Assembly (NCBI RefSeq): GCF_007859075.1
Contig: NZ_VOAK01000020.1
Location: forward strand, 124,001 to 188,000
Source of the DNA: Gemmobacter aquaticus
Lineage (GTDB): Bacteria; Pseudomonadota; Alphaproteobacteria; Rhodobacterales; Rhodobacteraceae
Direction: 5' to 3'
DNA length: 64,000 bases
In this document: one piece after another, positions 9,932 through 10,971 of the stretch
How positions within the stretch are numbered: position 1 is the stretch's first letter
How the letters are laid out: each line of letters opens with the position of its first letter
Notes under the pieces: generated by a model
Databases searched by the model: none
What the model saw: the letters and a program-made list of their open reading frames with translations, nothing else
What the model was told of the DNA's origin: nothing
Program-made: the position numbers and the translations under genes

Positions 9932-10035
9932 CGGGCGCTCCGGCGGTCGTGGTCGGGGTAGTCGGGGTCGGGCGACCTTGGCCTTGGCGCAGTCGGGATG
10001 CAAGGGGGCGGCAAACGCTGGCCCCAAAACGGAAA

Positions 10036-10107
10036 ACGGCGACGCCCAGGGAGGAGGAGGGGCGCCGCCGTTCCGAAATCGGCTGCCCAGGGAGGAGGAG
10101 GGGCAGC
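10036..10107 (-). ncRNA. CcsR-type sRNA unit 5 (hairpins 2 and 1) ending in a terminator
   Basis: Two hairpins with CCUCCUCCC loops on the minus-strand RNA. Hairpin 2 (10082-10107) has a seven-pair stem. Hairpin 1 (10036-10071) pairs CGCCC (10043-10047) with 10060-10064, then a G-U (10042/10065), then six more pairs. Hairpin 1 is followed on minus by TTTCCGTTTT, so it doubles as the rho-independent terminator of the array. Loop motif positions on plus are 10049-10057 and 10090-10098. In Rhodobacter sphaeroides, CcsR RNAs with two such loops are stress-induced and lower C1 and pyruvate dehydrogenase gene expression; the equivalence here is inference from structure and neighbourhood. Confidence 0.85.
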
Positions 10108-10123
10108 GTTTCTGTCGCGGCGC

Positions 10124-10181
10124 CTCCAGGGAGGAGGAGGGAGACACCGCATTTATCCAGGCCCAGGGAGGAGGAGGGGCC
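10124..10181 (-). ncRNA. CcsR-type sRNA unit 4 (hairpins 4 and 3)
   Basis: Hairpin 4 (10160-10181) has a five-pair GGCCC stem. Hairpin 3 (10124-10143) has only four pairs and is the weakest of the ten. Both loops carry CCUCCUCCC on minus (plus positions 10166-10174 and 10129-10137). A perfect 14-base palindrome, CCAAGGATCCTTGG (10180-10193), abuts hairpin 4. Unlike units 1-3, no separate third hairpin is seen before the next unit. Confidence 0.8.
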
Positions 10182-10194
10182 AAGGATCCTTGGT

Positions 10195-10284
10195 GGGCCA
10201 CCAGGCCCGAAGAAGAAGCGGCGACCCCAGGGAGGAGGAGGGGGCCGCCGCAGAACCCAGGCCCAGGGAGGAGGTAGGGCCGGG
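10195..10284 (-). ncRNA. CcsR-type sRNA unit 3 (hairpins 6 and 5, plus short third stem)
   Basis: Hairpin 6 (10260-10281, extendable to 10256-10284) and hairpin 5 (10218-10251: four pairs, one G-U, six pairs) lie four to eight bases apart. Both loops carry CCUCCUCCC on minus (plus 10266-10274 and 10230-10238). A motif-free stem GGGCC-ACCA-GGCCC (10195-10208) follows, after TTCTTCTTC on minus. The second hairpin is the stronger one, as in units 1, 2 and 5. Confidence 0.85.
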
Positions 10285-10292
10285 ATCCGAAT

Positions 10293-10386
10293 GGGGCCGT
10301 TCAGCCCCGAATAAGTTGCGACGATCCCAGGGAGGAGGAGTGGGGACCGCCGCTGCGTCCGACCCAAGGGAGGAGGAGTGGGTCGG
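10293..10386 (-). ncRNA. CcsR-type sRNA unit 2 (hairpins 8 and 7, plus short third stem)
   Basis: Hairpin 8 (10359-10386) has a perfect eight-pair stem around a 12-base loop. Hairpin 7 (10318-10353) has a long stem with two G-U pairs and one bulge. Loop motifs lie at plus 10368-10376 and 10330-10338. A motif-free hairpin, GGGGC and GCCCC (10293-10308), follows downstream on minus. Confidence 0.87.
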
Positions 10387-10394
10387 GCATTTCA

Positions 10395-10483
10395 GGAAGC
10401 CTTGGCTTCCGTATTTGGACGGCGACACCTGGGAGGAGGAGCGGTGTCGCCGATCATGCACTGGCCCTGGGAGGAGATGGGCC
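10395..10483 (-). ncRNA. CcsR-type sRNA unit 1 (hairpins 10 and 9, plus short third stem)
   Basis: The first unit after the DUF1127 stop codon, only 11 bases away. Hairpin 10 (10463-10483) has a five-pair stem and a loop with one changed base (UCUCCUCCC). Hairpin 9 (10421-10451) has a perfect nine-pair stem GGCGACACC/GGTGTCGCC and a loop with the exact CCUCCUCCC motif (plus 10431-10439). A motif-free hairpin GGAAGCC/GGCTTCC (10395-10410) closes the unit. Confidence 0.87.
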
Positions 10484-10493
10484 GCGCAGAAAC

Positions 10494-10709
10494 TTACTTG
10501 CCGTAGGCGGCCTCATAGGCCAGCGCCACGATCATCGAGCGGTGGATCCCGAGATCCGCCAGCTCCGCATCATTCAGCGCGCTCAGTTCACGCACCGTCT
10601 GCTTGAAGATGGCGCGCTGCGCCATCGCTTTCTTCACGCCGCCCACCAGCGCGACGATTTGCTCGCCGAACCCGGCCTGAGCAACGCGAGAGGTGTTCAC
10701 GAAAGCCAT
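10494..10709 (-). CDS. DUF1127 small protein, CcaF1-like
   Basis: A 71-residue basic protein ending in the DUF1127 (YjiS-like) core: [20 protein letters not shown], with the invariant L-x-D-x-E-L-x-D-[LI]-G-[IL]-x-R pattern at about residues 42-56. In Rhodobacter sphaeroides the DUF1127 protein CcaF1 (RSP_6037) is co-transcribed with the CcsR sRNAs, binds RNA and aids sRNA maturation. The same order is seen here, with the first CCUCCUCCC hairpin 11 bases after the stop. The frame is open upstream, but ATG 10707-10709 has an AAGGA site about ten bases before it and gives the family's usual MAFVNTSR start. Role as an RNA-binding maturation factor is inferred from the homologue and context. Confidence 0.88.
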
Positions 10710-10971
10710 TTCATCAGTCCTTGCATACTGCGCTTGGGCGGGGGTGCTTTCTTTGCGTCCTCGTCTTCTGCGCCGATGGGATGAAGATGGGGGAATTTCT
10801 GCACCTGCACAATCCAAGAATGCTGCATTGCCGATATGCGGATGTTGCATGGCTGACGACGCCTTGGCGATGGCTTGTCAGGCGGTCTGCGTGAAATTTG
10901 ATCGCCTGGAAAACCAGTCTTGCCCTTTCTGCCGCGCTGAACGAGTCTGGCCCGGAAATTCGGAGATCGAC

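Follow-up and report, generated by a model that had tools for sequence, protein, structure and literature searches.

The stretch of DNA analysed here (the window, 64 kb of the Gemmobacter aquaticus genome) carries on its minus strand a short DUF1127 gene followed by ten hairpins that share a loop motif, and this locus is a well-supported member of the known ccaF1–CcsR kind, also called "cuckoo" or CIN1. It lends itself well to comparative study of stress RNAs of a class that is still poorly understood. The surprise of an expanded array dissolves on comparison with relatives; what merits following is the range of array sizes across the family, a private promoter element and a set of phage-borne relatives.

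The gene (10494–10709, minus strand; 71 codons plus stop) is a ccaF1 homologue that matches Pfam PF06568 with an E-value of 4.9e-11, in keeping with the initial annotation, which had placed a DUF1127 gene before the array. Its protein is matched in all 11 of the 11 same-genus genomes, being 62–66% identical in Gemmobacter caeruleus, G. lutimaris and G. aquatilis and only 39% identical in one (G302). CcaF1 of R. sphaeroides is likewise described as 71 amino acids long (PMC10253847).

The loop motif CCTCCTCCC is present in nine exact minus-strand copies, all in 10049–10439, against 0.89 expected in the window (none of 100 shuffles reaches nine), and a search of both strands of the 64-kb window found no further exact copy. 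The tenth loop, first in array order, has the variant TCTCCTCCC (10477–10469, minus strand) and begins 16 nt past the DUF1127 stop codon (10494–10496). When the minus strand from 10026 to 10493 is folded (MFE −236 kcal/mol, z −8.75, lower than all 100 shuffles), it forms ten motif hairpins and three motif-free stems, with all ten motifs in loops. Sequence count and fold thus agree on the ten hairpins, nine exact and one variant, that had been picked out by inspection.

The spacings between successive motifs (38, 63, 38, 64, 36, 64, 37, 39 and 41, in order) and matches to the Rfam CcsR1 model (RF02791) divide the array into units of two motif hairpins each, the ends of the individual RNAs being predictions. 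In the fold, unit 1 comprises hairpin 1 (10458–10487, loop UCUCCUCCC) and hairpin 2 (10416–10456, loop CCUCCUCCC, as in all later hairpins), within a CcsR1 match at 10414–10493, and is closed by a motif-free third stem at 10395–10410. Unit 2 has hairpins 3 (10354–10389) and 4 (10318–10353), a CcsR1 match at 10313–10391 and a third stem at 10293–10308; unit 3 has hairpins 5 (10253–10288) and 6 (10218–10251), a match at 10213–10288 and a third stem at 10188–10213. Hairpins 7 (10155–10187) and 8 (10117–10150) form unit 4 (match at 10112–10188), and hairpins 9 (10082–10107) and 10 (10030–10075) form unit 5. All lie on the minus strand. Third stems closing units 1–3 had been proposed and are seen in the fold. 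The proposal that pairs recur every 90–100 bases is close overall and holds for units 1–4, which recur every ~100 nt, but not for unit 5, which comes 76 nt on without a third stem between. The stems do not, as had been claimed, differ completely: the second (B) hairpins of most units have a CGGCG-type stem in common, and flank identity within the window is 0.49 between B hairpins, 0.39 between first (A) hairpins and 0.38 between A and B. Unit 5 appears to be a single additional A-type hairpin followed by a motif-bearing terminator hairpin, rather than another repeat of the three-stem arrangement; the stem of hairpin 10 runs into UUUU and it is likely that this hairpin is also an intrinsic terminator.

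A covariance-model search, which the initial annotation had put forward as a check, succeeds with one model and falls short with the other. The CcsR1 model matches units 1–4 with 62.5, 43.3, 45.3 and 43.4 bits (E 5e-15 to 2.5e-9), each below the curated cut-off of 65.3 bits, and the array is therefore filed under the wider cuckoo/CcsR kind rather than as a formal RF02791 match. The ar14 model (RF02344) matches the last three hairpins (10157–10033) with 65.9 bits, above its cut-off of 58.8. Jointly the two models span all five of the two-hairpin units that had been read from spacing. The CcsR1 cut-off is passed by L071, a locus from the same genus, with 91.4 bits and by L092 of Cereibacter johrii with 106.2 bits. 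Identification as 6C RNA or ar7 was rejected, the Rfam matches being weak and below cut-off.

That the stems are kept by compensating changes in relatives, as the initial annotation had expected, is borne out by nine same-genus arrays (the window and L069–L076, without L078 and without L077, which is truncated where its contig stops). Across these, 84.3% of cells are paired in the fold, compared with 37–48% when the partners are slid, and 33 pairs have changed on both sides, compared with 9–13 slid and 16.4 shuffled (none of 500 shuffles attains 33). A count of further pair types discriminates less well, with 79 versus 72.6 shuffled and 11 of 500 shuffles attaining 79. Individual helices behave well: that of hairpin 2 (helix 3) is paired in 94% of cells with five pairs changed on both sides, that of hairpin 6 (helix 9) in 100% with three such pairs, that of hairpin 9 (helix 14) in 95% and the third stem of unit 1 (helix 4) in 96%, whilst in the third stem of unit 3 the inner helix 11 reaches 84% and the outer helix 10 63%. 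Values for hairpin 4 (62%) and the third stem of unit 2 (50%) are low because the cross-species alignment is poor there; RNAalifold places the helix of hairpin 4 in register. Hairpin 10 is the most conserved between species, with 90% flank identity. The stems of the array are conserved by compensating changes, and the structure is real.

A conserved structure of this kind, with its most conserved hairpin running into uridines at the end, might be no more than a structured 3′ UTR that shields the DUF1127 mRNA and ends transcription. We think this very improbable: stem sequences vary while loops are fixed, Rfam sRNA models match, and the homologous RNAs are described as mature sRNAs in R. sphaeroides (PMC8625941).

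The strand of the RNA can be read from the stems themselves. Over 711 motifs from 81 loci, taking motifs closed by at least three Watson–Crick pairs, the stem positions comprise 4902 Watson–Crick pairs, 348 G–U pairs, 96 A–C pairs and 747 other mismatches, and the excess of G–U over A–C in stems read on the minus strand identifies that strand as the RNA. GGA loops are CsrA sites, and a functional plus strand, its GGGAGGAGG loops acting as decoys for a CsrA/RsmA-like protein, could appeal to a plus-strand fold that also beats its shuffles, if more weakly (z −4.08, 0 of 100). The G–U count runs against this, the gene, promoter element and terminator-like hairpin all lie on the minus strand, and the plus-strand fold breaks several hairpins; we find the idea scarcely credible.

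The initial annotation had called the array expanded, and this does not survive comparison. In a survey of 81 arrays (the window and the best 80 of 430 protein relatives, with motifs counted without a stem rule), the number of motifs ranges from 0 to 16, with a median of 9, and ten is the commonest count (23 of 81); the sole zero (L158) is a contig ending right after the gene, and some other arrays are also cut by contig ends. A second sample took the best DUF1127 match from one genome per genus and required a stem; it covers 98 of the 253 genomes with a match, these being the better-scoring ones listed and not a random draw. At least two hairpins are found in 83 of the 98, at least five in 67 and at least ten in 27, with none in 11 and 17 in the largest. 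With ten the commonest count and at least five hairpins in 67 of 98 genera, the array in the window is ordinary in size, and a record size for it was rejected. Of 295 family genomes, 77 have a triple of closely spaced motifs. No array seen exceeds the 26 motifs of L354 (G165:C1:333500-338000, minus strand), which stand behind a DUF1127 gene and of which 22 have a stem by the rule used here. That array consists of near-identical three-hairpin blocks of ~140 bp each, which points to recent tandem amplification in that genus.

For the window, a recent burst of tandem copying is ruled out by positional orthology. Among eight same-genus arrays of ten hairpins (a set that excludes the nine-hairpin L069 and the truncated L077), the best cross-species match of a hairpin keeps its place in the array in 348 of 560 comparisons, where 56 would be expected were positions exchangeable, and the units are thus older than these species. 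Array positions 4 and 6, and 5 and 7, are alike (67 and 69%), a likeness left over from an older duplication.

The layout of the array is also that of the family. The distance from one motif to the next has two peaks: of 631 such spacings, 432 fall at 30–49 nt and 187 at 60–99 nt, with 3 at 50–59 nt and 9 longer. The 185 long linkers analysed form a motif-free fold with a mean of −12.0 kcal/mol (−7.2 for mononucleotide shuffles); 174 fold better than the mean of their own shuffles by over 1 kcal/mol and 3 fold less well than it. Two-peaked spacing and folded linkers together indicate that two motif hairpins plus a spacer stem are the family layout and no oddity of the window. A terminator-like motif hairpin ends 32 of 80 arrays, by a crude rule that, judged by eye, misses some and takes doubtful ones.

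Upstream of the gene, at 10784–10812 on the minus strand, lies the promoter element TTGTGCA-N13-CCCCATCTT, a 29-nt sequence whose conservation is seen on aligning nine upstream regions from the genus; it has a −35 TTG, a CCCCATNT-type −10 and a conserved GCAGCA between them. It is called RpoH-like from the likeness of its TTG and −10 to published descriptions of RpoHI/HII promoters. With up to three mismatches, the element occurs at two places only in the 4.0-Mb genome, both before DUF1127–cuckoo loci. Upstream of 84 loci (the 81 and three paralogues), 77 sequences come within 4 of the 21 specified positions and 42 are exact, the pattern having been drawn in part from these same loci; the element is missing from the other 7 (6–7 mismatches, shuffled controls having 6 or more). 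Scanning the family with up to two mismatches gave 76 places in only 70 of 295 genomes and 2 control matches in all. For at least 56 of the 76, one of the DUF1127 matches listed follows within 300 nt downstream, and two of the 20 others (in G241 and G056) adjoin motif arrays. The element is a sequence handle for finding such loci.

The second of the two places in the genome belongs to L079 (C24:52793-53005 and downstream), with a second DUF1127 gene, a pair of CCTCCTCCC hairpins and a stem that lacks the motif and resembles a terminator; it has the same promoter element and an ar14 match of 76.3 bits. Two-hairpin paralogues are also found in L081, L082 and L085, with one hairpin in L080 and none in L083 and L084. 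In the window itself, a block upstream of the element (10821–10853, minus strand; GCCATGC...CCGCATA...GCAATGC) is conserved in the genus alignment and is a possible regulator site. Elsewhere in the window, three identical tandem tRNA genes lie at 1728–2092 on the minus strand (68.7 bits each).

What might such a locus do? In R. sphaeroides, ccaF1 is described as co-transcribed with CcsR1–4 from an RpoHI/HII promoter, the sRNAs deriving from the ccaF1 3′ UTR; a terminator at the 3′ end, maturation by RNase E and CcaF1 and turnover by PNPase are also reported (PMC10253847, PMC8307010, PMC8625941, PMC7866481). The targets of that operon include flhR. We consider it probable that the locus in the window is a stress operon of this type, in which an RpoH-type promoter drives an RNase E/CcaF1-cut tail whose loops block the ribosome-binding sites of metabolic mRNAs. 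The gene, hairpins and strand, the covariation and Rfam matches, the shared promoter element and the terminator-like last hairpin were all computed here. From the promoter at 10784–10812, one transcript would carry the DUF1127 mRNA and, as its 3′ tail, the five two-hairpin RNAs, and hairpin 10 would end it. By analogy, RNase E, aided by the DUF1127 protein, would cut the tail into CcsR-like RNAs, whose CUCCUCCUCCC-type loops may mimic the anti-Shine–Dalgarno tail of 16S rRNA, pair with purine-rich ribosome-binding sites and so keep a group of metabolic mRNAs from being translated under stress. The sigma factor, the RNase E/CcaF1 processing and the translation block are drawn from homology and the literature. 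The motif was already termed anti-Shine–Dalgarno in a 2011 rhizobial survey, which is described as proposing one family with varying hairpin number (PMC3927594), and NfeR1 is reported to silence targets via three mutually redundant loops that bear this motif (PMC10746234); the presumed anti-Shine–Dalgarno action of the loops in the window rests on such homology. Hairpin number varies widely among relatives while the loop, the promoter element and the unit layout are held, and the number of hairpins could conceivably set the dose, the suggestion of the initial annotation and a hypothesis open to array-length swaps.

An array of identical loops could instead be a protein sink, titrating an RNA-binding protein (the DUF1127 protein or Hfq) and so regulating indirectly, with pairing to ribosome-binding sites secondary. 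A motif number that varies from few to 26 around a fixed loop would suit this, and R. sphaeroides CcaF1 is reported to bind RNA and alter many RNAs, the CcsR RNAs being said to interact with Hfq. A sink, however, would need no loop that matches the anti-Shine–Dalgarno sequence, and NfeR1, described as Hfq-independent, loses target silencing when its three loops are mutated (PMC10746234). We regard it as unlikely and return to pairing with ribosome-binding sites as the preferred reading.

Only one gene of the genome has the full GGGAGGAGG before its ATG, encoding a propionate/acetate-CoA ligase (prpE), and targeting must therefore rest on shorter matches. The 167-amino-acid N-terminal part of this ligase scores below the full-length NCBIfam cut-offs. 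By eye, 10 of 11 orthologues within the genus have GGAGGAGG upstream of the start codon, the exact GGGAGGAGG being confined, among the orthologue stretches seen, to the window genome. Predicted pairing is stronger with the loop than with the 16S tail in the window genome (−20.6 versus −15.5 kcal/mol), in L274 (−21.7 versus −12.6) and in L268 (−19.0 versus −14.0), but weaker in L265 (−12.3 versus −13.9). A strong ribosome-binding site alone would give the same picture, so prpE is a lead only, a conceivable target. At least one 9-nt site of this kind is present in 264 of 295 family genomes, counted irrespective of gene and with no shared target claimed.

The newest by-product of the analysis is a set of phage-borne relatives. 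A triple-motif pattern search returned 65 viral contigs. In 40 of them, an ar14-like RNA of three hairpins occupies the same conserved position next to a phage DNA helicase (among L169–L233, including L199:5113-5233 and L203:4477-4596; many are near-identical). The two loci scanned score 81.2 (L199) and 80.5 bits (L203) with ar14, above the model's cut-off of 58.8; their helicase is PHROG 16, and the others were identified by tblastn. A Mu Gam-like or exonuclease gene lies on the other side of the RNA in 35 of the 40. In twelve aligned copies from two helicase clades (~55% identical), 360 of 360 cells are paired, with 5 pairs changed on both sides (reached by 35 of 500 shuffles) and 19 changed cells (0 of 500). 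The remaining 25 loci comprise 17 without strong stems and 8 with stems but without the helicase, two of which (L177 and L218) are low-complexity repeats. One viral contig (L187:757-1157) has two ar14 RNAs (107.8 and 109.2 bits) ~280 bp apart, without a helicase. Two blastn queries of a phage collection matched no named phage, and in five named phages of rhizobia whose helicase is related (L371–L375) the post-helicase gap lacks the motif. One narrow literature search with strict terms found no phage-borne copies, which is weak evidence of absence. If expressed, these copies would mean that bacterial viruses, too, have a use for the module. We tentatively suggest, while rating it somewhat short of an even chance, that the CCUCCUCCC hairpin is a portable anti-Shine–Dalgarno module; that tandem duplication adjusts its copy number (2 to 26 in one bacterial family), with motif-free spacer stems dividing the copies into units and a private promoter element driving them; and that temperate phages have adopted it in a three-hairpin form beside the helicase to steer host translation.

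The closest known system is CcsR1–4 behind ccaF1 (RSP_6037) of Rhodobacter/Cereibacter sphaeroides, with which the window shares a 71-amino-acid DUF1127 gene, two-hairpin CCUCCUCCC units, third stems between units and the promoter element. The comparison was made on Cereibacter johrii (L092), which we take to be a member of the R. sphaeroides group and which stood in for it. Its locus has an exact promoter element and eight motif hairpins in four pairs, as expected for the four CcsR RNAs that the initial annotation had named. The window differs in having five motif units rather than four, in lacking a third stem after unit 4 and in its terminator loop, which carries the motif; C. johrii has, by eye, a similar terminal stem with a motif-free loop. 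With rhizobial ar14/NfeR1 (RF02344), the window shares the same loop motif on adjacent hairpins. NfeR1, however, is described as having three hairpins and being transcribed from a promoter of its own (PMC10746234), whereas the ten hairpins of the window sit in the tail of a protein gene and the shared promoter element lies only upstream of that gene. The cuckoo RNA family, or CIN1, is described as having a constant CCUCCUCCC loop, free stems and short DUF1127 genes (Reinkensmeier and Giegerich 2015). Cuckoo RNAs are quoted as having 2–4 hairpins each, whereas the window has ten, which we read as five two-hairpin RNAs; as in that family, CCUCCUCCC lies in unpaired loops on variable stems, with a short DUF1127 gene on the same strand directly upstream.
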